Origin: Verrucomicrobiota bacterium
Lineage (GTDB): Bacteria; Verrucomicrobiota; Verrucomicrobiia; Verrucomicrobiales; Akkermansiaceae
Reading direction: 5' to 3'
NCBI GenBank assembly: GCA_027619375.1
Contig: JAQCFL010000006.1
Span: 1-42,463 of the forward strand
Length of the DNA stretch: 42,463 nt
A model generated the notes under the pieces. The model searched no databases. It saw only the letters and a program-made list of their open reading frames with translations, and was not told where the DNA came from. Below are positions 1,820-25,266 of the stretch, in pieces; the stretch's first letter is position 1; every line of letters begins with the position of its first letter. Made by a program: the position numbers and the translations under genes.

Positions 1820-2197
1820 GGGACGGCACTCTCCTGTGCCTGGGCGTCAGGGTATCGTGAACTCTCCATCAATGGCCTGCGGTTCCCACCCATCCCCTGT
1901 CGATTTGTCGGCGCCGAATTTTACACGTGATCCAGGCCGTGGGGGTTTGGTATTTTGAATTTGGGGCCTGGAGCTTATTTGGAAATTGGATTGTGGAAAT
2001 TCGACGGGCCCAACCCGATGGCCGGCAAAATTTCCAATCCCCAAGCTCCAAATAAATTTCAAATCCACATCCCAAGATCCAAACCCAGAAAGCGGGTTCG
2101 TCATCAACGCTTGATGGCGAACGCTACCGTCCTGGAGGGGCGCCCGATGTGAGCCTGAAGCCTCTGCGCATTCTCGGGAGAGTGACCGTCCCCTACC
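1815..2197. repeat. Intergenic inverted-repeat element with ~20 bp terminal inverted repeats
   Basis: Left arm GGTAGGGGACGGCACTCTCC (1815-1834) matches reverse complement of right arm GGGAGAGTGACCGTCCCCTACC (2176-2197) with one indel and one terminal base. Confidence 0.7.
1955..2090. repeat. Large AT-rich imperfect inverted repeat (internal to the element)
   Basis: Left arm TTTGAATTTGGGGCCTGGAGCTTATTTGGAAATTGGATTGTGGAAATT; right arm AATTTCCAATCCCCAAGCTCCAAATAAATTTCAAATCCACATCCCAAGATCCAAA; complementary words TTTGGAGCTTGG / GATTGGAAATT. Compositionally distinct from the GC-rich flanks. Confidence 0.65.
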
Positions 2198-2885
2198 TTA
2201 AGGACAGGACGCGCTTGAGCTGGGGGGCGGGCCATTGGCCGGGGGCGGTGGGCTGGTTTCCGAGGTAGCCGTAGTTGAGGACGGATCCCAATTGCGCGGC
2301 GAGGAGTCGGGAGCTGGGCGCGAGGGGGCCCATGCCCATCACGGAAAGGGGGAGCGGGGAGGGTTCCTGGAACAGCTCGATGATGCGCAGGAGGTCGCGC
2401 GGTTCCCGAATGCGGAAGGCCAGCTTGGCGACATCCGCCCCGGCTGCGGCGGCGGCCTCGATGCGGGAGCGCAGCTGATCGACGGGGGGCGTGGCCTCGA
2501 AATCATGGAAAGAGGCCACGCGGAGCATGTTTCGCTGCCCGGCTTCCGCCCAAAGAGCGCGCAACTCCACCAGGGACCGCAGCTCGAGATCGATCACCGC
2601 GGCCTGATCCAGCAGTCCGCGCAGGAGTCCCTCCCGATTTGTCACATCCCGTTGGCCAGCGCCGCCCTCATCAGGGTGCCGGGCAGTGATGAGCAGCGGG
2701 AGAGCGGGATTCAATTCCAGGACGAACCGTAGAACTTCGGGTCCGTCGCCCAGCACATCGAGGCGAAGTTCGACCAAATCGCAGTCCGCAGGGCTGATCT
2801 GAAAAGAAAGTGCGTCCGGATCGGTGATCGCTCCGACGGTCAGGGGAGACTGGTCGCGGAGGAGGGAGAGGAGGTCATGGCTCAT
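2193..2885 (-). CDS. aroD: 3-dehydroquinate dehydratase, type I
   Basis: ADCDLVELRLDVL, LLITARHPDEGG, ASFHDFEATPP, ADVAKLAFRIREPRDLLRI, MGMGPLAPSSRLLAAQLGSVLNYG: type I DHQase pattern including the Schiff-base lysine (VAKLA). Confidence 0.88.
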   Translation of the reverse strand: MSHDLLSLLRDQSPLTVGAITDPDALSFQISPADCDLVELRLDVLGDGPEVLRFVLELNPALPLLITARHPDEGGAGQRDVTNREGLLRGLLDQAAVIDLELRSLVELRALWAEAGQRNMLRVASFHDFEATPPVDQLRSRIEAAAAAGADVAKLAFRIREPRDLLRIIELFQEPSPLPLSVMGMGPLAPSSRLLAAQLGSVLNYGYLGNQPTAPGQWPAPQLKRVLSLR

Positions 2886-3050: not shown

Positions 3051-3671
3051 ATGATTATTCGTGCAATCCCCAGAGTCCTCTCCGCGTCCCTCCTCGCTGT
3101 CTTTTTTGCCACCGGAACCTCCTCGGTCTGTGCGCAGGCCAAGATGAAGGTGGACAAGCCGGAGTTCGACGACCTGAAGTCGCCGGACTTGGGCGGCGGC
3201 GGAAAGAAAAATTTCACCGGCAAAGATTGGTTGGAAGTGGAAGTGAAGTTCAACGTCGCAGACGTCCGCCCCGCATCGAAGGACGGTTTTGTCGACCAGG
3301 CAGAGATCCGCTGGTATGTGGCGGTGGAGAATCCGGGCGGCGAGGGCTTCTGGCTTCTGGAGAAGCAGGTCACCCACGTGAACATCGAACTGGGCGAGGA
3401 CTTCTACGCCTCGGTCTATCTCTCTCCGGCCTCCGTGAAGCGCCTCAGTGGCCGCGACCGCGCCAGCAAGAGCATTGTCTGGGGTGTGGCCGGCGAGATC
3501 ACCGTGGCCGGCACCACGGAGAGCTTCAACTCCCAACCCTCCAAGAAGGAGTGGTGGAAGGCGGGCAGTCTCTCCCGGACCGACAAGGTGCCTTTGCTCA
3601 ACAAGGACGAAACACCGTTCAAGGCCCTCTGGTGGGACCGCTACGCGGAGATCAAGCAGGACCGCCGCTGA
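3051..3671 (+). CDS. Secreted protein, Amuc_1102-like (first gene of pilus-like locus)
   Basis: Signal peptide MIIRAIPRVLSASLLAVFFATGTSSVCAQA; position immediately upstream of PilM-like gene as in the Akkermansia Amuc_1098-1102 cluster; product assigned mainly on synteny. Confidence 0.7.
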   Translation: MIIRAIPRVLSASLLAVFFATGTSSVCAQAKMKVDKPEFDDLKSPDLGGGGKKNFTGKDWLEVEVKFNVADVRPASKDGFVDQAEIRWYVAVENPGGEGFWLLEKQVTHVNIELGEDFYASVYLSPASVKRLSGRDRASKSIVWGVAGEITVAGTTESFNSQPSKKEWWKAGSLSRTDKVPLLNKDETPFKALWWDRYAEIKQDRR

Positions 3672-3748
3672 TTTTAATTTCATTTCCGAACCGCCGGCGG
3701 TGTGGCCCGCCCGGTTCGCAACCCCGACTTACCGACTTCCAATCTACC

Positions 3749-5539
3749 ATGGCTGACGCAGAAAGCACTGTCGCACTCAACATCGGATCCCAGCAGATTT
3801 CCATGGCGGTCTTTGACCAGGCCAAGAATGGCGGTTTGGTCCTGAAGAAAATTGATGCCGCCAGCATTCTGGCGGATCCCGCCGCGGAGATGGCGCGCTT
3901 CGCCCAGATGCGTGTGGTGGTGGGTGACCTTGCGAAACATTTGCAGGTGTCCAAGACGGGAGTGCGCTACGCGATTTCCGGACAGTCGGTATTCACGCGT
4001 TTCATCAAGCTGCCGCCCATCGAGGAGGACAACATTGATCAGCTGGTGGCCTTCGAGGCGCAGCAGCACGTGCCGTTCCCGATCAACGAGGTGATCTGGG
4101 ACTGGGCCGCCCTGGAAGCCAGCGGCACCGAGAAGGAGGTCGCCCTGGTCGCCATCAAGGCGGATCAGCTCAACGAGATCAACGACACCATCAAGGACAA
4201 CGGGCTGACCACCGTGCAGGTGGATGCCTCGCCCATGGCGCTCTACAACGCCTTTCGTTTCAACTATCCGGAGGAGCAGGAGAGCATTCTGCTCATCGAC
4301 ATCGGGGCCAAGGCCACCAACCTCATTTACATCGAGGGCGCCCGGGTTTTCACCCGCAGTCTGAACATCGGTGGCGCGGCGATCACCGCGGCCATCGCCA
4401 AGGACTACCACATTTCCTTTGCGGAGGCCGAGAACCAGAAGGTCACCAACGGGATGGTGGCCCTCGGCGGGGGACACACCGAGCAGCTTGATGAAGCCAC
4501 GGCCGGTCTGGCCAGCACCATCCGCAACGCCCTGACCCGGCTGCCATCTGAGATCGCCCGGACCAACACCTACTACCGCACCCAGCACGGCGGCAACCCG
4601 CCCACCAAGGCCTATCTGGCCGGGGGCGGGGCGAATCTGCCCTACATGCGCGAGTTCCTGGAAGAGAAGCTCCGCCTGCCGTTGGAATATTTCAATCCGC
4701 TCCTGCGTGTTTCGATCGGCAAGGGGCTCGACACCGATGCCCTCGCCCCGCTCGCCCACACCATGGGTGAGTTGGTGGGGCTGGGACTCAGCGGCATCGG
4801 CCAGTCCAAGCTCAACATCGACCTGGTGCCCGGGGCGGTGCAGTCGGCCCGGGACAATGCCCGTCGCAAGCCCTTCCTGCTTGCCGCCACGGTCCTCCTC
4901 CTCGTTGGTCTCGCGGCCTGGGCCGGATCCAAGGTGAAGAACGCGGCCACGGCGCAGACCAGGGCTGTGGAGATGGAGGCCAAGGCTGCCGAACTCCGGC
5001 CCTTCGCCAACCAGATCAAGGCCCTCGGCAACAGTGCCAAGTCGCTCAGTGAGGTGGGTCTCTCCTATGCCGATGCCCAGGTGCAGCGGGAGGAATGGGT
5101 GCACGTGCTCAACGAACTCAAGGGGCACTTCGCCAGCACCTCGGTGTGGGTGACGGATTTCCAGCCGCTGGTCGGCTACGAGAAGGGCCAGCCCACCACC
5201 GGCACCTCGGTGGTGAAAAACAGCTTCGGCACCAATGCTTACGGGACGAGTTCCCTCAACGACCAGATCAAGGACCCCAAGGCGGAGATCAACGCGGTGC
5301 GCCTCGTCGGTTTCTGGCGTCAGGGAGGGGACAACCACAACGCGGTCAACAAGATCGTCGACAAGCTCCGCAAGGAGGGCGTGCTCTTCGAGCTGAAGAT
5401 GGGGGGCGAAAAGGACCCCCGGGCCATGACGGACGGCGAGATCTTTGAGATCTTGAAGAACAACGCGGACGACCCGGATGAATTGGGCGCGAGCTTCAAG
5501 CTCGTCCTGCCGCTCAAGCGCACCATCCCCCTCAACTAA
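3749..5539 (+). CDS. PilM-like actin-fold ATPase with C-terminal membrane/PilN-like region (Amuc_1101-like)
   Basis: ATG at 3749 (ACCATGGCTGAC) rather than upstream ORF start 3227. SETVALNIGSQQISMAVFD, IDQLVAFEAQQHVPFPINEVIWD, ILLIDIGAKATNLIYIEGARVFTRSLNIGGAAITAAIAKDYHISFAEAE, AYLAGGGANLPYMREFLEEKLRLPLEYFNP = PilM; then LNIDLVPGAV...KPFLLAATVLLLVGLAAWA = PilN-like motif plus TM helix. Confidence 0.88.
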   Translation: MADAESTVALNIGSQQISMAVFDQAKNGGLVLKKIDAASILADPAAEMARFAQMRVVVGDLAKHLQVSKTGVRYAISGQSVFTRFIKLPPIEEDNIDQLVAFEAQQHVPFPINEVIWDWAALEASGTEKEVALVAIKADQLNEINDTIKDNGLTTVQVDASPMALYNAFRFNYPEEQESILLIDIGAKATNLIYIEGARVFTRSLNIGGAAITAAIAKDYHISFAEAENQKVTNGMVALGGGHTEQLDEATAGLASTIRNALTRLPSEIARTNTYYRTQHGGNPPTKAYLAGGGANLPYMREFLEEKLRLPLEYFNPLLRVSIGKGLDTDALAPLAHTMGELVGLGLSGIGQSKLNIDLVPGAVQSARDNARRKPFLLAATVLLLVGLAAWAGSKVKNAATAQTRAVEMEAKAAELRPFANQIKALGNSAKSLSEVGLSYADAQVQREEWVHVLNELKGHFASTSVWVTDFQPLVGYEKGQPTTGTSVVKNSFGTNAYGTSSLNDQIKDPKAEINAVRLVGFWRQGGDNHNAVNKIVDKLRKEGVLFELKMGGEKDPRAMTDGEIFEILKNNADDPDELGASFKLVLPLKRTIPLN

Positions 5540-5557
5540 TTACCGGAACCCACCTTC

Positions 5558-6625
5558 ATGTCAGATTGGATCAAGGAAAACAAGTTTGCCGCCGCCATGC
5601 TCGCGGTCGCCGTGGTGGCGATTGCGGCGACCTACCTCTTCTCGGGAACGAAATCCGAGGCCTATGAGGGATCGCTGGGGGCCTTTCAGACCAGTGCGGG
5701 GGATTACTCGAGCCTGGTCCGCACGGAACCCTACCCCGATCCGGCCGGACTGGAGGCGTATCGCAAGGACATCGTGGCCTACAAAGGACAGGTGGAGGGT
5801 TTGCAGAAGGCCCTCCTCGCCTTCCGTCCGGAGAAATTCGAGAAGGTCCGCCCGGCGGAGTTCACGACCCGCATCAACGAGGTCGGCAACGCCCTGAGGA
5901 AGATCTATGACAAGAACGGCATCAAGTATCCCGAGAAATGGCAGCTTGGGTTCGAGGGCTACACCAGCAGCCCGCCGCAGGACAACGCCACCGATTTCCT
6001 GAACTACCAGCTCGACGGCCTCAACTGGCTCTACACGGCCCTCGCCAAGTCCGGTCCCAGCGAGTTGCTCAATGTCTATCGCTCCCGGCTCCCCATCGAG
6101 GATGGCGAGCCGATGGGGGCGGCCCCGCCGAGCGGGAATCAGCGGGGGAGAGGCAAGCAACAGGCCGGTCCCGTCGATCCCTACTTCACGCTCCCCGTGG
6201 AGCTTACCTACCGCGGTCCGGAGTCCTCGCTGCGCAAGTTCCTGACCGAGATTTCCAACTCCAAGAAATACTTCTACGTGGTGCGTGCCATGCGGGTGGA
6301 GAACACCAAGGGGGAGATTCCCCCGAAGAAGTCCGACGCGAACTTCAAGGCGGAGGAGGCCCCTGAGGTGAGCGATCCCTTTGGCACCGGCGTCTTTGAT
6401 TTCGTCATCCCCGGCGATGACGGCGCCCCCCCCGCCGAGGAAGGGGAAGAGCCCGCTCCGGAAGAGGACGCGCCGGCCGCCGACGTGGTGCTTCCCGCAG
6501 TGGATGCCCCCGCCTCCGGCGAACAGATTCTCGGCCGGGTTCTCGGCGGGGAGGAAGTCTTCGTCTTTCTTGAACTCGAACTCATCCTCTTCCAGGACAA
6601 CGTCGCGTTGCCCGAAGTGAAGTAA
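5558..6625 (+). CDS. Amuc_1100-like (PilO-type) inner membrane pilus protein
   Basis: N-terminal MSDWIKENKFAAAMLAVAVVAIAATYLF TM; motifs recalled as shared with Amuc_1100: MS[DN]WI..NK.AA, LGF..Y, A..G.S....VYR..LPIE, C-terminal G.E.VFV...L.L..F. Syntenic position. Confidence 0.85.
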   Translation: MSDWIKENKFAAAMLAVAVVAIAATYLFSGTKSEAYEGSLGAFQTSAGDYSSLVRTEPYPDPAGLEAYRKDIVAYKGQVEGLQKALLAFRPEKFEKVRPAEFTTRINEVGNALRKIYDKNGIKYPEKWQLGFEGYTSSPPQDNATDFLNYQLDGLNWLYTALAKSGPSELLNVYRSRLPIEDGEPMGAAPPSGNQRGRGKQQAGPVDPYFTLPVELTYRGPESSLRKFLTEISNSKKYFYVVRAMRVENTKGEIPPKKSDANFKAEEAPEVSDPFGTGVFDFVIPGDDGAPPAEEGEEPAPEEDAPAADVVLPAVDAPASGEQILGRVLGGEEVFVFLELELILFQDNVALPEVK

Positions 6626-6641
6626 CCAAGCATTCAACACC

Positions 6642-7685
6642 ATGGCTTCCAACATTTCCGACAGCTACGAAAAGGTCGTTCTCGTCGTCGCCCTCGTCAT
6701 CGCCCTTGCCCTCGGCGGGCTGGCCTTCACGAGCGGTGGCAAGATCGAGGAGGATTTCGTCCAGCCCAGCCCCACCCGCAGACCCGCTCCGGAGCTTCCC
6801 GGCAAGGGCAGGATGGACATCGCCATCGCCAGCCTCGGCAAGCCGGTGCAGTATGAGCGCGGCAAGGAAGGAGGCCGCGAGGTCGATACCTTTGTGGGGA
6901 TCCCCTGGTACCTCAAGAAAGACGGGAGTACCGTCGATCTCGGCGATGCGGGCCAGCAGGACGTCCACAAGGACATTCCGAACATCTGGTGGCTGGACAA
7001 CCACCTGAACCCCGGCTTCGCCGATTCTCCCGAGCAGGATGCCGACGACGATGGCTTTTCCAACCGCGAGGAATTCGTGGCAAAGACCGACCCGAACTCG
7101 CCTTCCGATCACCCGTCGCTCATCGACAAGCTTCTCGTGAAGGAACTCATCAACGATAAGTTCCTCCTCGATTTCAGTGGCGACATCGGCACCAGCTACA
7201 AGTTCAAGACGGAGACGAAGATCAACGGCAAGATCGAGAGGGGAACGACCAGGGACTACATCCCCGCCGGGGAAGGGGACGCCTCGGTGTTCTTTTCCGG
7301 GCCTCCCTTCCAGTTCCGCTTCCGTCTCAAGGCGGTGGAGGAGCGCGTGGTCGTCAATGAGCGGACCAATGTGGAGAGCAAAGAGAAATTCGCGATCGTC
7401 GAAGACCTCAAGCCAAACCTCAATGGAAACGTCTATGAGATCCCCTACGGGGGCCAGGGCCTCATCTTCAATGATTACAAAGTAGTTCTCTACCTCGACG
7501 CGATCGGGGAGGAGGGCAACAAGTTCGAAGTGCCCATCAACACCTCCTTCAGCCTTCCCTACAAGGAGGACGCTGCCGATAAGCCCTTCACCTTCAAGGG
7601 GCTGAGCGCGGCGGGGGACGTTATGATCACCTACCAGACAGACGGACAGCCTGACCAGAAGGACCTCGTCATCCCCGAAAAGTGA
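6642..7685 (+). CDS. Amuc_1099-like membrane protein with EF-hand/TSP3-like calcium loop
   Basis: N-terminal TM (VVLVVALVIALALGGLAFTSGG), DADDDGFSNREEFVAKTDPNSPSDHPSL calcium-loop motif, syntenic position between Amuc_1100-like and secretin genes. Confidence 0.75.
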   Translation: MASNISDSYEKVVLVVALVIALALGGLAFTSGGKIEEDFVQPSPTRRPAPELPGKGRMDIAIASLGKPVQYERGKEGGREVDTFVGIPWYLKKDGSTVDLGDAGQQDVHKDIPNIWWLDNHLNPGFADSPEQDADDDGFSNREEFVAKTDPNSPSDHPSLIDKLLVKELINDKFLLDFSGDIGTSYKFKTETKINGKIERGTTRDYIPAGEGDASVFFSGPPFQFRFRLKAVEERVVVNERTNVESKEKFAIVEDLKPNLNGNVYEIPYGGQGLIFNDYKVVLYLDAIGEEGNKFEVPINTSFSLPYKEDAADKPFTFKGLSAAGDVMITYQTDGQPDQKDLVIPEK

Positions 7686-7767
7686 GTCTCTTTGACCAAC
7701 CATGATCTCCGCGAAGAAAAAAGCTTCACAAACCCCTGATATTTGAAAGAACCTCTCCACGCACACC

Positions 7768-10374
7768 ATGCAACAAGCGACGCATCCCAAATACACACAC
7801 AAGGCATTTGTCCTTGGCCTTTCGCTTGGCGTTCTAGGTATCACCTCAGCACCGATGTTCGCACAGGGCATCGCGCAGACTGAGGCGATCCGCCGCCAAG
7901 CGTTGACCCAGGAAGCCGAGTCCCTCCTTGACCAAGGTCGGGACGCCTATGCCAAGGGGGAGTTTTCGGAGGCCGTGCAGAAATACCGCACGGCCCTCGA
8001 CAAGCTTCCAGGGGGAGCCAACACCGAAGACCGGCGGCGGGCCATCACGGCCCACCTTGCCGACGGAAGTGTGGCCCTGGCCCAGCAATACCGCCGGACC
8101 GGCAAGTACGTCGAGGCGCGTGAGCTTCTCGAGACCGTGCTCATCGCCGATCCCGGCAATGCCGCTGCCCGTCAGCACCTCGAGTATCTCGACGACCCGA
8201 TCCGGACCAATCCGGCTCTCGACTACGTGCATGTGGAGAAGGTCGATCAGGTGCGTCGTCACCTTTACACTGGCGAAGGCTATTACAATCTCGGGCGTTA
8301 CGACAAGGCCATGGAGGAGTTTGAAGCGGTGATCCGCGACGACCCCTACAACACCGCGGCCCGCCGTTTCATGGCACGCATCTCCTCGGCGCGCTCCGAC
8401 TACTACCGCGCCGCCTACGATGAGACCAGGGCCCGGATGTTGGCGGAAGTCGATCAGGCCTGGGAACTCTCCGTTCCTCCGGCCGCTGGTGACCTCTTAA
8501 CCCCCTACGCGGGCGTCTCCCCCGACAGGGGTGGTGTCGTTTACATTCAGAACAAGCTTCGCAACATCATCATTCCGATGGTGGACTTCGATTCGACCAC
8601 GGTGGAGGAGGCCATCGACTTCCTGCGCCAACGTTCCCGCGAGTTGGATACCAATGAACTTGATACCGAGAAAAAAGGCATCAACTTCGTGATCCGCAAG
8701 GCCCGCGTGGAAGGTGGTGCGGTTGATGACGCCCTTGATGCCGATGTCGGGCTCGGGGCCTCGAATCCCGGTTCGGCCTCCATCAAGGAACTCAAGCTGC
8801 GCAACGTGCCGATCGCCACGGTTCTCCAGTATATCTGTGACCAAGCCGCCCTCCGCTACAAGGTGGACGAGTTTGCGGTGACCCTCCTGCCCGCCTCGGG
8901 TGCTGAGGGAGAGGACCAGCAGACCCGGCGCTGGCAGGTGCCTCCCACCTTCCTCAATGACATTGAGAGTGGCAGCGACGGTGGTGGTGCGGCGAGCGAC
9001 GACCCGTTTGCCGACGCCGGTGGTGGTGGTGGTCTGCAAGGTGGTCTGAAGGGCCGTCGCAACCTGATCGACATTTTCAAGGACAAGGGGGTGACCTTCC
9101 CGGAAGGAGCCTCGGCCAGCTTCCTGCCCGGGTCCAGCACCCTGGTGGTGAAGAACACCCCGACCAACCTGGACCTCATCGATGTCCTCGTGGAGGACAT
9201 TCGCGGAGGCACTCCGAAGATGATCAAGATTCTCACCAAGTTCGTGGAAATCTCCCAGGAGAACTCCGACGAGTTGAGCTTTGACTGGATCCTCTCCCCG
9301 GTGGGCCTTGGCAAGGTCGCCTCCGACAACCTCTTCCTCGGTGGTGGCACGGTTGGCAGCGGCACGACCAGGACCGCCAGTGATTTCATCAGTCCTGTGG
9401 CGGGAGCATTTATTCCGGGAATCCCGTTGGGTTCCACCCAGGCCGTTTCGAACATCGGCACGGCTGGTCTTCGTTCCGGTGACTCCGCATTGACCCGCAA
9501 CAGCATCGACGCCATCCTCAACAACCCGACCCGGACCGCGCAGAACGCCGATGTGGCGCCTGGCATCCTGTCCCTCACCGGATTGTTCAACGACGGTCAG
9601 TTCCAGATGATCATGCGTGGCCTCGCCCAGAAGAAGGGTGCGGATATCATGACCGCTCCGAGCGTGACGACCCGTCCGGGTCAGAAGGCGACGATCGAGA
9701 TCATTCGTGAATTTATCTACCCCACCGAATACGAACCACCGGAACTGGCGCAGCAGAACAACAACAACTTCGGCGGTGGTGGCGGTGGCGGTGGCGGTGG
9801 CGGTGGCGGCGTGACGCCAGCGACCCCGACGGCCTTCGAGACCCGCAACATCGGGGTGACCTTGGAGATCGAGCCCAACGTTGGTGCCAATGACTACGTG
9901 ATCGACTTGCGCTTCGCGCCGGAGATCGTCGAGTTCGAAGGCTTCATCAACTACGGAAGCCCGATCACCTCGCCCGCCGCCGACGCCTTCGGCAACCCGG
10001 TCACCTTGGTCATCACCGAGAACCGCATCGAGATGCCGGTCTTCTCGAGCCGCCGCGTCAGCACCGGGATCACCATCTATGACGGTCACACCGTCGCGGT
10101 TGGTGGCCTCATGCGCGAGGACGTTCAGAATGTGGAAGACAGTGTGCCCATCCTGGGTGACCTCCCGATCATCGGTCGTCTCTTCCAGAGCAAGGCTCAG
10201 AACCACATCAAGAGCAACCTCATCATCTTCGTCACGGCCCGCATCATCGATGCGACCGGACGCCCGGTGCGGAAAGCAGAAAGTCCTACCGAAACGCCGC
10301 TCGCCACGGGTGGCGGGGGAGTGGGAGTGGGAGTCGGAGTGGCCGGCGACGCGGGAGTCCTCCCGATTCGCTAG
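7768..10374 (+). CDS. TPR-containing secretin, PilQ/GspD family (Amuc_1098-like)
   Basis: Signal peptide; N-terminal TPR repeats (AESLLDQGRDAYAKGEFSEAVQKYRTAL; GEGYYNLGRYDKAMEEFEAVIRDDPYNTAAR); C-terminal secretin signature VSTGITIYDGHTVAVGGLMREDVQNVEDSVPILGDLPIIGRLFQSKAQNHIKSNLIIFVTARII. Confidence 0.92.
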   Translation: MQQATHPKYTHKAFVLGLSLGVLGITSAPMFAQGIAQTEAIRRQALTQEAESLLDQGRDAYAKGEFSEAVQKYRTALDKLPGGANTEDRRRAITAHLADGSVALAQQYRRTGKYVEARELLETVLIADPGNAAARQHLEYLDDPIRTNPALDYVHVEKVDQVRRHLYTGEGYYNLGRYDKAMEEFEAVIRDDPYNTAARRFMARISSARSDYYRAAYDETRARMLAEVDQAWELSVPPAAGDLLTPYAGVSPDRGGVVYIQNKLRNIIIPMVDFDSTTVEEAIDFLRQRSRELDTNELDTEKKGINFVIRKARVEGGAVDDALDADVGLGASNPGSASIKELKLRNVPIATVLQYICDQAALRYKVDEFAVTLLPASGAEGEDQQTRRWQVPPTFLNDIESGSDGGGAASDDPFADAGGGGGLQGGLKGRRNLIDIFKDKGVTFPEGASASFLPGSSTLVVKNTPTNLDLIDVLVEDIRGGTPKMIKILTKFVEISQENSDELSFDWILSPVGLGKVASDNLFLGGGTVGSGTTRTASDFISPVAGAFIPGIPLGSTQAVSNIGTAGLRSGDSALTRNSIDAILNNPTRTAQNADVAPGILSLTGLFNDGQFQMIMRGLAQKKGADIMTAPSVTTRPGQKATIEIIREFIYPTEYEPPELAQQNNNNFGGGGGGGGGGGGGVTPATPTAFETRNIGVTLEIEPNVGANDYVIDLRFAPEIVEFEGFINYGSPITSPAADAFGNPVTLVITENRIEMPVFSSRRVSTGITIYDGHTVAVGGLMREDVQNVEDSVPILGDLPIIGRLFQSKAQNHIKSNLIIFVTARIIDATGRPVRKAESPTETPLATGGGGVGVGVGVAGDAGVLPIR
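9772..9810 (+). repeat. GGY/GGTGGC repeat encoding 13 consecutive glycines inside the secretin
   Basis: ggcggtggtggcggtggcggtggcggtggcggtggcggc, preceded by an Asn run (AACAACAACAAC). Confidence 0.95.
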
Positions 10375-10471: not shown

Positions 10472-12436
10472 ATGCATGTTCTGGCGCTCACTGGCGGTAT
10501 CGCCACCGGCAAGTCCACCTTCGTTCGGCTCTTCCGCAGCTTGCTGCCGAGGGCGGAGGTCTTCGACAGTGATGCCTGTGTGGGCCGCCTGCTCGGCGAG
10601 CCCGTGGTGATCGGCCGGATCCTTTCCTCGCTGGGGTCGGAAGTAGGGGACGGGGAGGACGGTTTATCGCGGGTGCGGCTGCGGAGCCTGGTCTTTGGGA
10701 ATCCCGGGGCGCGGGCCGTTCTGGAGGGGATTCTCCATCCCCTGGTGCGGGAGGAATGTCTTGAACTCAAGGACCGAACCGCTAAGGAAGGGGGGTCGCC
10801 GGTGTTCATCGCGGATGTGCCGCTGCTTTTTGAAAGCGGATTCGAGTTTGGATACGAGCGCTCTCTTCTGGTTGCCAGCACGCGCGAAACCCAGTTGGTT
10901 CGCCTCAAATCCCGGAATGGATTCGACGACAAGCTGGCGGAAGCCATCCTCGCGGCGCAAATGCCCATCGAGGACAAGCTTCCCCTCGCCGACGTGGTCT
11001 TCTGGAACGAAGGCGCGGAAAGCCTCCTGCGAAAACAGATTCACCGATTTCTCCTGACACTCGAACTTATGAGCGAACAAGACACCTCCGTGCCGGAAGG
11101 CAACGCCCCGGGCACCCCGGAACAGAGTGATCCCCCCACCGAAATCGCGGTGGTGATGGAACAAGCGAGGCCGGACATCCCGGCCCGTCTGGATGTTGAG
11201 GAATTGCGTTCCAAGACCCTGGCCGAGCTGCTCGATCTGGCCACCACCCTGCCGCGGCGTCTGCCGGCCTTCGCCAGCAAGAGCCAGGTGGTCTTCGAAA
11301 TCCTCACCTATTACGCGGCGGAAGGCTGCCACCTCGAGGCGGAAGGAATCCTCGAAATGGCCAAGGACAGTTTCGGGATGTTGCGTGACCCGAAACGCAG
11401 TTTCAAAAATTCTCCCGACGACTTTTACCTCGGCAGCAACCTCATCAAGGACTTCGGCCTGCGACCAGGTCAGCTGGTGCGCTGCACCCTGCGCCCTCCG
11501 CGCGACCGGGACAAGTATCTCTCGGCCGGGGAGGTGCTCTCGGTGGAGGGCATTCCCGCCGCGGAATACAAGGAACCCAAGCCCTTCGACGAACTGACCT
11601 CCCAGTTTCCCGACGAACGCTTCGTGTTGGAGACCCAGAACCCGGCCGATCTCGCCGTGCGCCTGGTCGATCTGGTCGCTCCGCTGGGCAAGGGGAGCAG
11701 GGGACTCATCGTCGCTCCTCCCCGCGGTGGCAAAACGATCCTCCTGAAGCAGATCGCGCGCTCCATCCAGGAGAGCAATCCGACCGCCTCGCTCATCATC
11801 CTCCTTCTTGACGAGCGGCCGGAGGAGGTGACCGATTTCGAGGAGACGGTGGATGCACCGGTTTACAGTTCGACCTTTGACGAACCCTCCCAACGGCATG
11901 CGGCTGTGTCTGATCTCGTCCTGGAGCGGGCCCGGCGGCTGGTCGAGTTGGGGCGGGACGTGGTCATCCTTCTCGACAGTCTCACCCGTCTGGCGCGGGG
12001 CTACAACAACGCCCAGCGCGGCGGCCCGATCGGCTCGGGTGGCCTGAGCCCCGCCGCCCTTGCCCAGTCGCGGAAATTCTTCGGCGCGGCCCGCAATGTG
12101 GAGGAGGGGGGGAGTCTGACCATTCTCGCCACTTGCCTCGTGGAAACGGAGAGCCGGATGGACGATGTCATTTTCGAGGAGTTGAAGGGCACCGGAAACA
12201 TGGAAATCCGCCTCGACCGGGATCTGGCGGAGCGACGGATCTACCCCGCCATCCACATCCCCCAAAGCGGAACGCGGAACGACGACCGGCTCTACCATGC
12301 CGAGGAGATGCCCAAGGTCATCGATTTGCGGCGCCAACTGACCGGTCTGCCGGTCGGCGAAGCGGTGGAGACCCTCATGAACCAGCTCGCCAAGACCTCC
12401 AGCAATGCGGAGTTTCTGCTCCGGGGTCTGAAATAG
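10472..12436 (+). CDS. Dephospho-CoA kinase (residues ~1-199) fused in frame to transcription termination factor Rho (residues ~200-654)
   Basis: [38 protein letters not shown] (CoaE); RHO_N helix region, [98 protein letters not shown] (Rho). No stop codon between the two; only internal ATG candidate at 11069 lacks a Shine-Dalgarno. Confidence 0.88.
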
Positions 12437-12805: not shown

Positions 12806-12858
12806 TCTGGGGGTAATCGGGCCTTGGGGGGTCGCCAAAATTGCCTATGATCGGCATC

Positions 12859-14430
12859 ATGAAAAAACATCAATCACGAAATTCCGCTTCCGCTTCCTGC
12901 AGGCGTTACCGGTCGCATCAGGCCGCGAGGCTCTTTTGGATGGGCGCGGGAGTGCTCTCCCTCTCATTGGCGTCCCTTGCCCAAGCGCAGGTTCTCGTTT
13001 ACAAGGAGGTGAAGGAGGCAAGCCAGACTGGCCCGACTTCGATGGTTTTCGATCAGGGCTCGCTCGACATTAGCCTGGAGGACGGCAGTTTTTCGATTGA
13101 GGGATGCGCTGGAAACGGGGGGATCTCGATCATGCAGCCCAACATCTTTTGTCCCATTGGAACCACCGCGTTTATCCTGCTAGGGGATGTCGACGGAAAT
13201 GGCGAGGCTGATACCCGGTCGTTCTGGTCCGTGACGAATGTTGTGCGGGCCCGCTTTATCCGGCCCGGATACGCCACCGGCCCCAACGCGATTCGCCTGA
13301 GTGCTGCTCCCGCCAGCTCGGGCCTTCTGGGAGATCTGCTTTCCACCCGGGATGCGTCGGTCACTCTGTTCTACAACGTGTTGAATCCAGTGACCCAGCA
13401 GGAGTATGGGATCACCCGGTATGGGCTTTTTAAAAATTACAGTAACGCACAGCTCCCGGAGATGTATGATGATCTCCCTCTGGGGATCTATCAGTTTCGG
13501 TTCCCGAGTCTGCTGAGTGAAACGGGAGTCCATTACATCAACCTGCTCAGGAACCCTCTTATCGAACCTTGGCCGGGACCCACGCCGGTACAGGGGCTGG
13601 GAGCCTTCCGGATGACCAACGACTGGGTGAACGGGGCCCTTGAGTTTGATCCACGCTTCGTGGTCGATTTCAACTGGACGGGAATTTCTTCGGATGGTGG
13701 TGGTAGCAGCAGTGCATCAGTTGTTCCCTCGGACCGCCTCTATTTTTCGTTGAGGGAGACCGCCACTGGTCGAATTGTTTACCCTCCCTTCCCTGATGCC
13801 ACCCCCGACGGGGATCGGGCTCCAATTTGGCTGGAAGGGCAACTGTACGGCGGAGGAGTGTCGATCGGTCCGTTTTTCCAATTGGGCTTTTTCGAGCCGG
13901 GAACCGAGTTGACCGGCTATCTTGAAGTGCGGCGGAGCCTGATTGTTGGAGGTGGGGTGGATGTGGCGATCTCTGCCTACGACAATTCCGAGCGAATTTT
14001 CAAATGGCCCGTCCGATTCATTGATACCTATGAGGGGTTTGCCATTCTGGCGTATCCCGGAGGGACTCCTGATGCGCAAATCAGCCCTACTTTTGACTTT
14101 GATGGTGATGGCTACACCAATTTTGAGGAGTTTGCCTATCAGACCGATCCAGCCCGGCCCGAGGACAATCCGAGCCAGCTTGTGCTGCCCGAGATCGTGG
14201 AGGGGAAGTGTGTTCTGACTATTCAGAAGCGGCCATTCGTCGGGGGCCGATTGGACTACTATGCGGAGGCCTCTACGGACGGTGGGGTTACTTGGGCGCG
14301 GGTGACTGCGGCGAATCCGGATTGGGTGATTACCGCCAACAATCTCCAGGTTCTGCAGGTGATGTCGACGTCTCCTTTCAGTGCCCCCTCCTGCATGGTT
14401 CGGCCCCGTGTGAAGCTTATCAATCCGTAA
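12859..14430 (+). CDS. Secreted hypothetical protein with C-terminal calcium-loop module
   Basis: ATG at 12859 (MKKHQSRNSASA...) with signal-like LFWMGAGVLSLSLASLAQAQ; C-terminal FDFDGDGYTNFEEFAYQTDPARPEDNPSQLVL. Confidence 0.75.
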   Translation: MKKHQSRNSASASCRRYRSHQAARLFWMGAGVLSLSLASLAQAQVLVYKEVKEASQTGPTSMVFDQGSLDISLEDGSFSIEGCAGNGGISIMQPNIFCPIGTTAFILLGDVDGNGEADTRSFWSVTNVVRARFIRPGYATGPNAIRLSAAPASSGLLGDLLSTRDASVTLFYNVLNPVTQQEYGITRYGLFKNYSNAQLPEMYDDLPLGIYQFRFPSLLSETGVHYINLLRNPLIEPWPGPTPVQGLGAFRMTNDWVNGALEFDPRFVVDFNWTGISSDGGGSSSASVVPSDRLYFSLRETATGRIVYPPFPDATPDGDRAPIWLEGQLYGGGVSIGPFFQLGFFEPGTELTGYLEVRRSLIVGGGVDVAISAYDNSERIFKWPVRFIDTYEGFAILAYPGGTPDAQISPTFDFDGDGYTNFEEFAYQTDPARPEDNPSQLVLPEIVEGKCVLTIQKRPFVGGRLDYYAEASTDGGVTWARVTAANPDWVITANNLQVLQVMSTSPFSAPSCMVRPRVKLINP

Positions 14431-14463
14431 TTTCCCCCCATTCAACCAGATTTGCATTTTCCC

Positions 14464-17400
14464 ATGAACCGTAGAATCAAGATTTCCAAGGGGGCGAAGC
14501 CAGCGATTGCGTTGCTTGCCTGCTTACTTGTGGTCAATCCGCTTCCTGTCCTGTCTCAGGCGGTGGGGGGGGGAGTGGTCGTTGAGCCGGAGCCGACTGA
14601 TCAAGTTGTTGAGTTTGTGCAGGGTGGGAGGGTGCACCGATGGGTGCTGTCTTCCGAGGAATACTGCGTATCGCAGAAAGGGCACCAATCCCGTCTCGGC
14701 AAGATGCCCTCCCCTGAAGGCATCGATCTTCTCCAGGCCTTTAAGGAATTGAACAGCGGGGTGCACTCTCAGGCCTCCGTTCCAGATGCGATCAAGGACT
14801 TGGTGGAGCCGGCTGTTCCTGGTTCGGAGCCTTGCTATTGCCCCGTCGTCTATCCGGAAGGCCAGAGTGGTCGGGAACGGGCACGAGGCGTGTTGCGCCC
14901 CATGGTGAACCTGAAATTGGCGGGTGATGTGAATCTCGAAGCGCTACAGGCCGAGGTGGGAGCGACGAGTTCCCGTTGGGTCGTGGCTGGACGTTTTGCG
15001 GTTCTTGAGTTCGCCGACGTGGAGACCGCGCTGGGCTCCCTGGACACACTCGGCTCCACGGAAGGGGTTAAGGATGCCTATCCGGAAATCAGCGGGAGGA
15101 TGAAGCCGATGGCCATTCCGACCGATCCCCTGTTTTCCTACACCCCTCCCCGCGTGAATTACCAGTGGCACCTGCGGAACATCGGAGCCAATGGGGGATT
15201 TGCCGGAGTTGATGTGAACATCACGGATGTCTGGGACCAGTACACCGGTAGCGGAGTCGTGATCGGGATTGTTGACGACGGACTGGAAACCTTCCATCCC
15301 GACCTCTTCTTGGGCGTGGATTTCGCCAATGACTGGGATTTCAACGGAAATGACAACAATCCCAATCCACTGAACGACACCTTGGACGGCATCGTGGATA
15401 GCCATGGAACCTCGGTGGCAGGCGTTGCCGGGGCTCGATGGAACAACGGAATCGGAGGAGTTGGCAGCGCCCCTCAATGTAAGCTGATCGGCTTGCGGGT
15501 TCTGGGGGATTTGAACAATGTAACAGAAGCTGACTTCGCTGCGGCGGTGGGTTGGAACCAGGGAAACATTGCCATTTCCAACAACAGTTGGGGTCCCGCC
15601 AATCCCACTGCTTTCGCGGATTATGGCGGAGTTGTGGCTGCCATGGAAACCGGCGTGGCGAACGGCAGGGGAGGTAAGGGCAGAATCTTCTGTTTTGCAG
15701 CAGGCAATGATGGCGCGGTTGAGGGGAATACCAACCATTCGAATCTTACCAGCGCGCCGGAGAGTGTTGTGGTGGGGGCATTGAATGATGATGGAACCCG
15801 CTCGTACCTTTCGACTCCAGGTGCGTCGCTGACCATCAGTGCGCCCTCCGGTGGTTCGGCAAACCAGCAGAAAGCGACCACCACCACATTGACCAACATC
15901 ACCAACGGCTACACTGATGGATTCAGTGGAACGTCTGCGGCGACTCCCTTGGTTTCAGGTTGTATTGCCTTGATGCTGGAGGCCAATCCGAACCTGGGCT
16001 GGCGGGATGTGCAGGAAATTCTCATCAAAACGGCAGTGAAGAACGACCCCCTGCATCCGGACTGGAGCACCAACGATGCCGGGTTCCATTTCAACCACAG
16101 CTTTGGAGCGGGAATGATTGACGCGGGGGCTGCGGTCGCCGCGGCGGAGACGTGGACCAATCTGGGGCCGCGCCAGATGGCTCAGATCGAACTCACCGAT
16201 TTCACTGTGGGCCTTGAGCCGGATCCGGGTGGGGCCGCTATCCCCGATGGAGGATTGCCGGTGGATTTTTTGTTCAACGCGGGAAATTTCACCCCGTTGC
16301 GGGTGGAACATGTGATTCTGAATCTTGATATCGAGCATGCCAACCGGGCGGAGCTCGAAATCACCCTGATTTCACCATCGGGGACTTCGAGTCTGGTCCT
16401 GGACAACTTCACGGGAGCAGCGGGGGAGCAAAACATCGCCTATGAGTTTCCCCTGAGTACTGTCCGGTGTTGGGGTGAGGAGTTCTCGGGCGCATGGCGG
16501 GTGCGCGTTCGGGATGCCGTTGCCGGTGGTGGCGTGGGCGAGATTTTGCAGGCCAAAATCACGGCTTACGGGACCACCCCTGATGGGCAGCCCCCACGGG
16601 AGCTCCCCGGTTTGGCGGGGAGTCGGCGCCTTATCTCGCGACTAGGCGAGTTCACGGTGCTTCCGTTGATCGGGACACCTGAAGGTGCAACGATATCGAT
16701 TACCGGAGGAAGCCTGCCGGGGGGAATGTCCTTCGAGGGAGCGCTTGGAGTTCTCTTTGGTGCCCCGACGGAGATCGGCGAGTTTCCCGTGGAGGTCACG
16801 GTGACCAACGGCCCGGACTCGAGGGTCTTTATCGTCATCTTCGTGGTAGGCGATGTGGCAGGGACGACATTGGGTGCTGCGATTGAGCAGACCGATGCGA
16901 GCACCACATCGAGCGGAAACGGGGGGCCTTGGTTGGTTGATACCACTGTGACCTTCGATGGCTCGGATGCGGCGGTTTCACCCGGCACTCTCGGGCACAA
17001 CTTCTACTCAGAGCTCCAATTCACGACCGGGGAGAGTGGCGTCATGGTTTATGCCTGGCGGACATCTTCAGAGGAGAATCGGGATCGCGTCTGGCTTTAT
17101 GAGACCGGCGACCCAAAGCAGAAGTGGTCTAGTTTCCTGTCTGGCGAAAGGGACTGGGGAAGGGTGGCTCTGCCTGTTGCTGCCGGGAAAACCTATCGTT
17201 GGAGGATGGAACGGGACGCGTTGGGCAGTTTTGGATCAAACCAGGCATGGCTCGATGCCGTGCAGGTTCTACCGATGTCCTCCTACATCACGAATATCCA
17301 GGGAGTGTTGGGGACGGACTTGGGCCTATCCTTTGTGGGGAAAACCTATTGGTTGGCCGAATCGTCGGTCGTTGATGGTGTGGTGAAGGAGATCGTTCGG

Positions 17401-18090
17401 TCCCCCGCTGTGGGAAATGGGCAGTTTGCCGGCCTGAAGACCACCGTCGTGGGTCCTGTGCGACTCAAGTTCGATTGGAAAATCGACGCGGCACCTTTGG
17501 ATTACCTCTACCTGTTGGTGAATGGGAGCATCGCATTGAGCCGCCAGTCTTTCATGGACTGGCAGGAAATCTCGTATGAATTGCCTGCGGGGACCCACCA
17601 GATCGAATGGCGCTACAGCAAGGACGACACCTTCGCCTTTAGTGCCGATGCCGCGTTTCTTGGGTCCATTTCCACGGAGTTTTTCGCGAACTACAATGCC
17701 TGGATCGCGCCGTTCCTGAGTGCAGAGCAACTTAGTAATCCGCTCTTTTACGATCCTACTGCGAATCCGGATGGCGACATGTGGAACAACTTTGAAGAGT
17801 ATGTTTACGGGGGAAATCCGATGGTGGCGGAAGCTGGTCCGCTTCCCCGCGAGCCGAAATTGGTCCTCAACGACTTGGGGGAATGGGTTTTCCGTTACGA
17901 GATGCCCGAAGAAACCGAGGATGTGGAGGTGACGATGGAGGAGTCCACGAATCTCATCGACTGGATTCCCTCGCCGAGTGCGACGGAAATCAACGTCGGT
18001 GGCATGACCCGTTTCGAGGTTCCGGTCAGTGGTCCTGGTGCGAGGTATTTTCGGGGTCAACTGACTTCAAGCGGGGTGATCACCCCCTGA
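14464..18090 (+). CDS. Secreted S8 (subtilisin/kexin-like) serine protease with P-domain, putative Ig fold and C-terminal calcium-loop module
   Basis: Catalytic triad GVVIGIVDDGLETFHPDL (D), DSHGTSVAGVAGA (H), GFSGTSAATPLVSGCIALML (S); P-domain RVEHVILNLDIEHANRAELEITLISPSGTSSLVL...GAWRVRVRD; DPTANPDGDMWNNFEEYVYGGNP near C-terminus. Confidence 0.9.
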   Translation: MNRRIKISKGAKPAIALLACLLVVNPLPVLSQAVGGGVVVEPEPTDQVVEFVQGGRVHRWVLSSEEYCVSQKGHQSRLGKMPSPEGIDLLQAFKELNSGVHSQASVPDAIKDLVEPAVPGSEPCYCPVVYPEGQSGRERARGVLRPMVNLKLAGDVNLEALQAEVGATSSRWVVAGRFAVLEFADVETALGSLDTLGSTEGVKDAYPEISGRMKPMAIPTDPLFSYTPPRVNYQWHLRNIGANGGFAGVDVNITDVWDQYTGSGVVIGIVDDGLETFHPDLFLGVDFANDWDFNGNDNNPNPLNDTLDGIVDSHGTSVAGVAGARWNNGIGGVGSAPQCKLIGLRVLGDLNNVTEADFAAAVGWNQGNIAISNNSWGPANPTAFADYGGVVAAMETGVANGRGGKGRIFCFAAGNDGAVEGNTNHSNLTSAPESVVVGALNDDGTRSYLSTPGASLTISAPSGGSANQQKATTTTLTNITNGYTDGFSGTSAATPLVSGCIALMLEANPNLGWRDVQEILIKTAVKNDPLHPDWSTNDAGFHFNHSFGAGMIDAGAAVAAAETWTNLGPRQMAQIELTDFTVGLEPDPGGAAIPDGGLPVDFLFNAGNFTPLRVEHVILNLDIEHANRAELEITLISPSGTSSLVLDNFTGAAGEQNIAYEFPLSTVRCWGEEFSGAWRVRVRDAVAGGGVGEILQAKITAYGTTPDGQPPRELPGLAGSRRLISRLGEFTVLPLIGTPEGATISITGGSLPGGMSFEGALGVLFGAPTEIGEFPVEVTVTNGPDSRVFIVIFVVGDVAGTTLGAAIEQTDASTTSSGNGGPWLVDTTVTFDGSDAAVSPGTLGHNFYSELQFTTGESGVMVYAWRTSSEENRDRVWLYETGDPKQKWSSFLSGERDWGRVALPVAAGKTYRWRMERDALGSFGSNQAWLDAVQVLPMSSYITNIQGVLGTDLGLSFVGKTYWLAESSVVDGVVKEIVRSPAVGNGQFAGLKTTVVGPVRLKFDWKIDAAPLDYLYLLVNGSIALSRQSFMDWQEISYELPAGTHQIEWRYSKDDTFAFSADAAFLGSISTEFFANYNAWIAPFLSAEQLSNPLFYDPTANPDGDMWNNFEEYVYGGNPMVAEAGPLPREPKLVLNDLGEWVFRYEMPEETEDVEVTMEESTNLIDWIPSPSATEINVGGMTRFEVPVSGPGARYFRGQLTSSGVITP

Positions 18091-22480: not shown

Positions 22481-22532
22481 TCCGGAACAATCCGCCTGAA
22501 CCAATTTTCACGACCCAGCCAATTTTCATTTG

Positions 22533-25181
22533 ATGTCTGACGACTCGATCAAGCCAATCAACGTAGCGGATGAGATTTCGAAGTCCTTTCTGGACTACTC
22601 GATGTCCGTGATCATTTCACGAGCCCTGCCCGATGCCCGGGACGGATTGAAGCCCTCCCAGCGGAGGATTTTGTTCGCCATGCACGACCTCGGGCTGGCC
22701 CCGAACAAGGCGCACCGGAAATGTGCCAAGATTTGTGGTGACACCTCCGGTAACTACCACCCGCACGGGGAATCGGTGATCTATCCGACCCTGGTCAACA
22801 TGGCGCAGGGCTGGTCGATGCGTGAAACGCTGGTGGACGGCCAGGGGAACTTCGGTTCGCCGGAGGCGGATCCCCCCGCGGCAATGCGATATACGGAGGC
22901 GCGCCTGACGCACCTCGGCCTGGCCATGATGGCCGACATTGAGAAGGACACCGTTGATTTCATCCCCAACTACGACGAGACGCGAACCGAGCCGACGGTG
23001 TTTCCGGCGGCGTTTCCGAATCTCCTGGTGAACGGCGGAACGGGAATCGCGGTGGGCATGGCCACGAACATTGCGCCCCACAACCTCGGGGAGATTGTGG
23101 ACGGCATTTGTGCCATGATCGACAATCCCGAGATTACCCTGCCCGAGCTGATGGTGCACATCAAGGGGCCGGACTTTCCGGTGAGCTGCGAGATCCGCGG
23201 GATCAAGGGGATCGAGAGCTACTTTGCGACGGGTCGCGGCAGTGTGAAGCTGCGTGGTCGGATGGAGGTGGACGAGAAGGCTTCCGGGGCGGCCATCATC
23301 ACCATTACCGAGGTTCCCTACGGAGTGAACCGTGCCACGCTGCAGCAGCGGATTGCGGAGCTGGTGAACCAGAAGATTATTCTGGGCATTTCCGGGATGC
23401 GCGACCTGACCGACGAGAACACGCGCATTGAGATCACCTTGAAGCGGGATGCTCGGCCGCAGGTCATCGTCAACCAGCTCTACAAGATGACGGCGATGGA
23501 GACATCGTTCAGCTCCAACATGCTGGCCATTCACCAGCGGCGTCCGAAATTGCTTTCGCTCAAGGAAGCGTTGGATTGCTACATCGAGCACCGTCGCGAG
23601 GTGGTCATCCGGCGCACCCGATTCCTCCTGCAGAAGGCGGAGGACCGGGCCGAGAATTTGGAGGCCTTCCTCCTGGCGCTGGGGCATCTGGATGACTTCA
23701 TCAAGATGATCCGCAATTCGAAGAATCGCGATGAGGCACGGGAGCGGATCAAGGGCTACGACTTCACTACCGAGGCGGCGGAGGCCCTGGGTGTGCTGAT
23801 CCGCGGGCAGGCCAGCATCGTGAACGGGCGTTACGTCTTCACGGACCGGCAGGTGAACGCGATCCTCGAGCTGCGCCTCTATCAATTGACCGCGATGGAG
23901 CGGGACAAGATCAAGGCCGAATACGATTCGGTGATCGCGGAGATCAAGGACCTCATGGACATTCTGGCCCGCGAGATCCGGGTGCTGGGGATCATCAAGG
24001 ACGAGTTGCGGGAGATCAAGGAGAAGTATGGTTCGCCGCGGAAGTGCGAGATCCTGCCGGACGAGGGGGAGATCGCCATTGAGGATCTCATCGCGAACGA
24101 GGGGATGATCGTGACCTTGAGCAACCGTGGCTACATCAAGAGGACTCCGGCCAGCGAGTACCGGGTGCAGGGGCGGGGCGGCAAGGGTGTGCGGGGTATG
24201 GAGACGCGCACCGTGGACGAGGAAGAGAATGATTTCGTGGAGCATCTGTTCAGCACCACCGCGCACGATTACCTGATGTTCTTCACGAACACCGGGCGGG
24301 TGTATGTGGAGCGGGTCTTTGACATTCCGGAGGGTTCGCGGGCCTCGAAGGGGCGGAGCATCAAGAACGTGCTCAACCTGCAGGCCGAGGAGAACATCGC
24401 GGCGATGTTGCGCATCGAGCGCCGTCTGGATGACGAGGAGAACGACGTGACCTTTGGAGAGGACAGCGGCTTCGTGTTCTTTGCCACGCAGAACGGCAAG
24501 GTGAAGAAGACCGGTCTCTACGACTTCCGGAATTTCCGGAAGGACGGGATCATCGCCATCAAGCTGGACGAAGGGAACGAGCTCATCGACGTGCGTCTGA
24601 CCACGGGGAGTGATCACGTGGTGCTGGTGACCCGGAAGGGATTGAGTCTGCGCTTCAGCGAGGAGCAGGCCCGTCCGATGGGACGGACCGCGGCGGGCGT
24701 GGCGGGGATCAAGCCGCGGGGCGGCGATGTCCTGATCGGGCTTTCGTTGGTCTCGGATCAATCGACGCTGCTGGTGGCATCGGCGAACGGCATCGGGAAG
24801 CGGACGCCCTTTGGTGACTACCGGAGCCAGACGCGGGGCGGGAAGGGGATCATCACCATGAAAGTCACCGAGAAAACTGGAGATGTGGTGGGTGCGGTTG
24901 CGGTTGAGGAGGAGGACGAGTTGATGCTGATGACCACGGGTGGGCAGAGTATCCGGATTCGCGTGGCGGAGGTCCGTGAAGCGGGGCGCAACACCCAGGG
25001 AGTGAAGCTCGTCACCTTGAAGGACGATGAGAAGCTCCAGGACATTGCCCGCGTGGTTCCCGATGCCGAGGAGGTCGGGGAAGAGGGCGAGGCGGATCCG
25101 GAGACGGTTGACGAAGCTGTGGGGGCGGCAGACGAGGGAACTGGTCCGGATGATGCTTCGCTGCCCCCGGATGAGGTCTAA
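22533..25181 (+). CDS. gyrA: DNA gyrase subunit A
   Basis: DYSMSVIISRALPDARDGLKPSQRRILFAMHDLGL, GNYHPHGESVIYPTLVNMAQ, catalytic Tyr context AAMRYTEARLT, C-terminal beta-pinwheel GyrA-box-like QGRGGKGV. Confidence 0.95.
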   Translation: MSDDSIKPINVADEISKSFLDYSMSVIISRALPDARDGLKPSQRRILFAMHDLGLAPNKAHRKCAKICGDTSGNYHPHGESVIYPTLVNMAQGWSMRETLVDGQGNFGSPEADPPAAMRYTEARLTHLGLAMMADIEKDTVDFIPNYDETRTEPTVFPAAFPNLLVNGGTGIAVGMATNIAPHNLGEIVDGICAMIDNPEITLPELMVHIKGPDFPVSCEIRGIKGIESYFATGRGSVKLRGRMEVDEKASGAAIITITEVPYGVNRATLQQRIAELVNQKIILGISGMRDLTDENTRIEITLKRDARPQVIVNQLYKMTAMETSFSSNMLAIHQRRPKLLSLKEALDCYIEHRREVVIRRTRFLLQKAEDRAENLEAFLLALGHLDDFIKMIRNSKNRDEARERIKGYDFTTEAAEALGVLIRGQASIVNGRYVFTDRQVNAILELRLYQLTAMERDKIKAEYDSVIAEIKDLMDILAREIRVLGIIKDELREIKEKYGSPRKCEILPDEGEIAIEDLIANEGMIVTLSNRGYIKRTPASEYRVQGRGGKGVRGMETRTVDEEENDFVEHLFSTTAHDYLMFFTNTGRVYVERVFDIPEGSRASKGRSIKNVLNLQAEENIAAMLRIERRLDDEENDVTFGEDSGFVFFATQNGKVKKTGLYDFRNFRKDGIIAIKLDEGNELIDVRLTTGSDHVVLVTRKGLSLRFSEEQARPMGRTAAGVAGIKPRGGDVLIGLSLVSDQSTLLVASANGIGKRTPFGDYRSQTRGGKGIITMKVTEKTGDVVGAVAVEEEDELMLMTTGGQSIRIRVAEVREAGRNTQGVKLVTLKDDEKLQDIARVVPDAEEVGEEGEADPETVDEAVGAADEGTGPDDASLPPDEV

Positions 25182-25266
25182 ATCGGGGATATTCAGGGGG
25201 GAGGATGGGATGAAATGCCTGATTTCCGGGTGGCGCTCCCGGTATAGCTATTGTATATCCAACGGT

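Follow-up and report, generated by a model that had tools for sequence, protein, structure and literature searches.

Gene Content of the Locus

The window (the whole stretch of 42,463 nucleotides that was analysed) carries five collinear genes on the plus strand, between positions 3051 and 10374, whose products are homologues, in order, of Amuc_1102, Amuc_1101, Amuc_1100, Amuc_1099 and Amuc_1098 of Akkermansia muciniphila. The first (3051–3671, 206 aa) specifies the Amuc_1102 (MUL2A) homologue, matched by phmmer to crystallized Amuc_1102 (7DSZ) with E = 5.3e-28. The Amuc_1101 (MUL2B) homologue (3749–5539, 596 aa) comprises a PilM domain and a PilN-like part (PF11104, 1.2e-31); its start was placed at the ATG at 3749, the mechanically called ORF opening at 3227. 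It is followed by a PilO-like Amuc_1100 homologue (5558–6625, 355 aa; phmmer to crystal chain 6KNY, E = 2e-15), an Amuc_1099 homologue (6642–7685, 347 aa) that was assigned by its position and the family alignment, and an Amuc_1098, or PilQ, homologue (7768–10374, 868 aa) with a Secretin domain (PF00263, 1.8e-30) at residues 619–828.

The flanking genes lie outside the machine. Upstream and divergent is a type I 3-dehydroquinate dehydratase gene (2193–2885, minus strand; PF01487, 2.7e-34), while downstream on the plus strand are coaE, for dephospho-CoA kinase (10472–11068; PF01121, 4e-32), and the gene for transcription termination factor Rho (11069–12436; ATP-synt_ab and Rho_RNA_bind domains). 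The dehydratase neighbor, shared with aquatic relatives, is kept in free-living family members (loci L065–L070, L074, L082, L090 and L099), and is also given in the legend of Fig. 2 of PMC13174399. Further downstream, a 529-aa protein (12841–14430) with a weak TSP3 repeat resembling that of the 1099 homologue adjoins a subtilisin-like protease of 1212 aa that carries a proprotein-convertase P-domain (14452–18090). A 1315-aa ORF (25027–28974) overlaps the end of gyrA (22530–25181) and has no Pfam match; its true start is probably downstream.

Synteny with A. muciniphila and Other Relatives

The reference genome was recognized as A. muciniphila because its 1100 protein is 100% identical to crystallized Amuc_1100 over 228 residues. 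Its locus reads 1102-1101-1100-1099-1098-coaE-rho, identical to the window, so that the Akkermansia-like order of the five genes proposed in the sequence-only reading is confirmed by direct comparison, and holds for coaE and rho as well. The two loci differ in protein sequence (37% identity for 1102, 41% for 1101, 30% for 1100, 31% for 1099 and 49% for 1098), in the longer acidic linker of the 1100 homologue, and in genus. The window genome is a MAG (84% complete, 466 contigs) of the family Akkermansiaceae, to which A. muciniphila also belongs, and the context earlier described as non-Akkermansia is therefore correct for the genus, but the source is a close relative within the same family. The nearest named record is the Akkermansiaceae MAG ANT-78 (79% identity in the 1101 protein), and other named relatives include Akkermansiaceae MAGs, Roseibacillus, Luteolibacter and Haloferula.

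For wider comparison, 41 loci were assembled, consisting of the window and 40 other members of the class that were picked for having an 1100 homologue. The order 1101-1100-1099 is found in all 40 of the other loci, with 1098 next in 39 and 1102 ahead in 35. A tree of the 1101 proteins follows the families, with Akkermansia forming a long branch (0.92) within its family and the genus of the window branching outside it, a topology to be expected under vertical descent with faster change in the gut lineage. The 1100 profile matched 239 of 289 Verrucomicrobiota genomes, although matches in distant classes may represent PilO in general.

Much of this has precedent. The synteny and its flanks appeared in print in 2026 under the name MUL2, for Akkermansiaceae as well as other Verrucomicrobiales (PMC13174399), and the A. 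muciniphila cluster and its PilQ were described by Ottman et al. in 2017 (PMC5332112) and 2016 (PMC4960237). The window locus thus adds another case to an already published cluster and is no new system, and the novelty first implied for it has mostly gone, since the synteny had already been reported.

The Amuc_1100 Homologue

Judged by its sequence, the product of 5558–6625 is a true Amuc_1100 homologue, with similarity far beyond chance: a profile built from the 41 homologues matched the crystallized Amuc_1100 chains with E of about 2e-77. All of the motifs listed in the sequence-only reading are present, namely MSDWIKENKFAA at the N-terminus, LGFEGY (LGFxxY), VYRSRLPIED (VYRxxLPIE) and, beyond an acidic linker, GGEEVFVFLELELILF at the C-terminus. 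The predicted structure (pLDDT 81) has a short cytoplasmic N-terminus, one TM helix, a long helix and two alpha-beta-beta units, with the linker forming a disordered segment at about residues 250–329, ahead of the last strand. A Foldseek search of this model against the PDB returned Amuc_1100 chains as the ten best matches (TMt 0.78–0.90, E about 1e-13), so the proposed homology holds for structure as well as sequence. The longer linker is real, but its length varies across the 41 loci from 20 to 81 residues (50 in A. muciniphila), and it was discarded as a special feature of this protein.

The next-best folds are PilO proteins of M. xanthus and P. aeruginosa (3JC8_Oa, 2RJZ and 5UVR), with probabilities of 0.57–0.84 and E-values of 0.08–0.66 that are not significant. 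The idea that the protein is a PilO-type component of an envelope machine fits this search in that PilO is the nearest fold after Amuc_1100, at scores that fall short of significance. The N-terminus is short and polar, and in the model the single hydrophobic helix runs straight into the long helix, as in PilO. A review has also likened the Amuc_1100 fold to proteins of type IV pili and type II secretion.

A PilM-PilN Fusion

The 1101 homologue is divided into a PilM domain (residues ~1–350), which matches the PilM structures 3JC8, 2YCH and 5EOU (3JC8_Ma, E = 7e-38), and a PilN-like part (~351–596); an INIDLVP-type motif marks the junction. Beyond this motif the model (pLDDT 88.6) has one TM helix, a long helix and an alpha/beta domain. 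In all 41 loci the protein continues for ~200–250 residues past the PilM domain, to a total length of 547–635 aa, and in most of them the PilN-like part opens with an NLLP-type motif, either (I/L)N(L/I)LP or NIDLVP. A profile of this C-terminal part matched M. xanthus PilN (3JC8_Na) with E = 9.6e-13, spanning PilN residues 3–139, and the Pfam PilN model matched 13 of the 41 members (best 1e-5). On this sequence evidence, PilM and PilN are fused in the 1101 protein at every one of the 41 loci. The Pfam PilN model found no match in the window genome, since the protein there is too divergent for a single model, and Foldseek gave no significant match for the PilN half, probably on account of its 100-residue helix. 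The relatives searched have one full-length PilM-PilN each, where the assembly holds the protein intact. In the part of the literature covered, no report of a PilM-PilN fusion in Verrucomicrobiota was found, and 1101 is named PilM only.

The 1099, 1098 and 1102 Homologues

At its N-terminus the 1099 homologue carries a TM helix, which is joined by a TSP3-type Ca-binding repeat (TSP3_bac was found in 16 of 38 members) and a further C-terminal region; the protein occupies the position of PilP. Pfam, a profile against the PDB and a search for PilP across the phylum returned no similarity to PilP, with none in the window genome; a PilP role is suggested by gene position. The 1098 homologue combines TPR repeats at about residues 54–205 with the C-terminal secretin domain, a sequence architecture that identifies it as a TPR-bearing PilQ. 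A second TPR-secretin, paralogous to PilQ and unlinked to MUL2, is present both in the window genome (contig C141; L060:27–2414) and in A. muciniphila (L201:3147–5672), followed in the two genomes by a protein of 487 or 546 aa, the 487-aa one matching no Pfam family. Elsewhere in the class, several members (L077, L082, L088, L090 and L099) have a second TPR-secretin in tandem inside the MUL2 locus.

A scan of the N-termini of 36 homologues of 1102 found Sec-type signal peptides, most of which end at an AQ-like site. A simple pattern for the class III prepilin motif was absent from all 36, and there was no N_methyl match on the locus contig (C100). Without a prepilin signature, the 1102 homologue was rejected as a pilin; these proteins are probably not pilins, and Amuc_1102 is probably a Sec-exported accessory protein.

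Motor Genes Elsewhere in the Genome

In the window genome, contig C336 holds a tandem pair of PilB-type ATPase genes together with genes for PilC and for a pilin whose N-terminus is of type IV. C206 has a second PilB-PilC pair, and C280, C398 and C442 between them encode several PilT-family ATPases. The PilT family scored over its curated cut-off, while the best PilB and PilC matches were below the equivalog cut-offs and nearly tied with GspE and GspF. A. muciniphila has a C336-type operon (64 and 68% identity to the window genome for PilB, 66% for PilC and 30% for the pilin) and a C280-type PilT/PilU pair (70 and 78%). Its ATPases of the PilB and PilT types that exceed the cut-off are limited to two PilB and two PilT, and its secretins to two, both of the TPR type (Amuc_1098 and its paralogue). 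Contig C21 of the window genome (L059) has a type II secretion-like secretin adjoining GspG- and GspK-like pseudopilins, and since the only secretins of A. muciniphila are the two TPR-secretins, this system appears to have been lost there. The simplest reading of the gene content is that the alignment complex and the motor set form one type IVa-pilus-like machine, because A. muciniphila has one of each.

Nature of the Machine

We favor, with a probability of roughly 0.8, a type IVa-pilus-like machine whose alignment complex and outer-membrane gate are specified by this locus, with Amuc_1100 as PilO. Compared with the PilMNOPQ systems of Myxococcus, Pseudomonas and Thermus, the likeness is by sequence for PilM, PilN and PilQ and by nearest fold for PilO, and the gene order is also alike. 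The differences are that PilM and PilN are one protein, TPR repeats are fused to the secretin, a protein with a TSP3 repeat stands where a recognizable PilP would be, an extra exported protein (1102) is present, and the motor genes are unlinked. The weak fold match and the gene position support a putative pairing of Amuc_1100, as PilO, with the PilN half of 1101; position places 1099 in a putative PilP role. In such a machine, the PilM half would bind the unlinked motor ATPase in the cytoplasm, the PilN half and the 1100 protein would form a periplasmic scaffold, and 1099, to go by its position, may bridge the inner-membrane complex to the PilQ secretin gate. PilB would then extend the filament through PilQ, and PilT/PilU would retract it. 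The binding of PilM to the motor, as well as extension and retraction by PilB and PilT, are established for those families.

The single chain joining PilM-like and PilN-like parts is also the architecture of GspL in type II secretion (PMC4471445), which likewise has a secretin, and this raises the alternative of a GspL-GspM-GspC-GspD-like complex, serving protein export or glycan uptake with no retractile pilus. Four of the 41 homologues of 1100 weakly matched GspM subtype b, for the pilin encoded next to PilC the top score, short of the cut-off, is that of a GspG-like pseudopilin, and PMC13174399 ties MUL2 in A. muciniphila to mucin transport. However, the similarity of both parts of 1101 is to type IVa pilus proteins and not to GspL, the order M/N-O-x-Q is that of type IVa pili and differs from that of type II secretion, and the window genome has PilT-family retraction ATPases over the curated cut-off, which type II systems are without. 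On C21 it also has a separate, type II secretion-like secretin with pseudopilins next to it, and we consider a type II complex at the MUL2-type locus improbable.

Few probiotic proteins have been studied as much as Amuc_1100, for which the usual description is an outer membrane or pilus protein. A second alternative is that it and its homologues are structural surface proteins, either part of a pilus fiber or an adhesin, as the term 'outer membrane pili-like protein' implies; in its favor are the surface immunofluorescence and the TLR2 activity that Ottman et al. (PMC5332112) reported in A. muciniphila. Against this are the PilO-like passage in the model from a polar N-terminus through the hydrophobic helix into the long helix, the position of PilO as nearest fold after Amuc_1100, and the retention of the gene between those for PilM-PilN and the secretin, together with the profile matches across the phylum given above, as befits a core machine part. 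A surface-protein role is accordingly very unlikely, more so than the type II alternative.

Implications for Amuc_1100

If Amuc_1100 is PilO, it is expected to have an inner-membrane anchor, and it is predicted to be an inner-membrane-anchored periplasmic scaffold, which conflicts with the surface immunofluorescence and the 'outer membrane protein' label. Its TLR2 activity would then be a side effect of the protein being released or exposed, and not its ancestral job. At somewhat better than even odds, Amuc_1100 would be the PilO of the whole phylum, in a complex where PilM and PilN are fused in GspL-like fashion and a TSP3-bearing protein stands in for PilP; as an inner-membrane scaffold, its TLR2 activity would be incidental and no pilus function.

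Reading Amuc_1100 as PilO would give this protein an ancestral function and a different predicted cell location, within a machine found widely among Verrucomicrobiota. The role of MUL2 in glycan or mucin attachment or uptake comes only from A. muciniphila genetics, which PMC13174399 cites. Assignment of the locus to a type IVa-pilus-like machine names the unlinked pilB pair, pilC and the pilT pair as genes that would be expected to share the MUL2 mucin/glycan phenotype.
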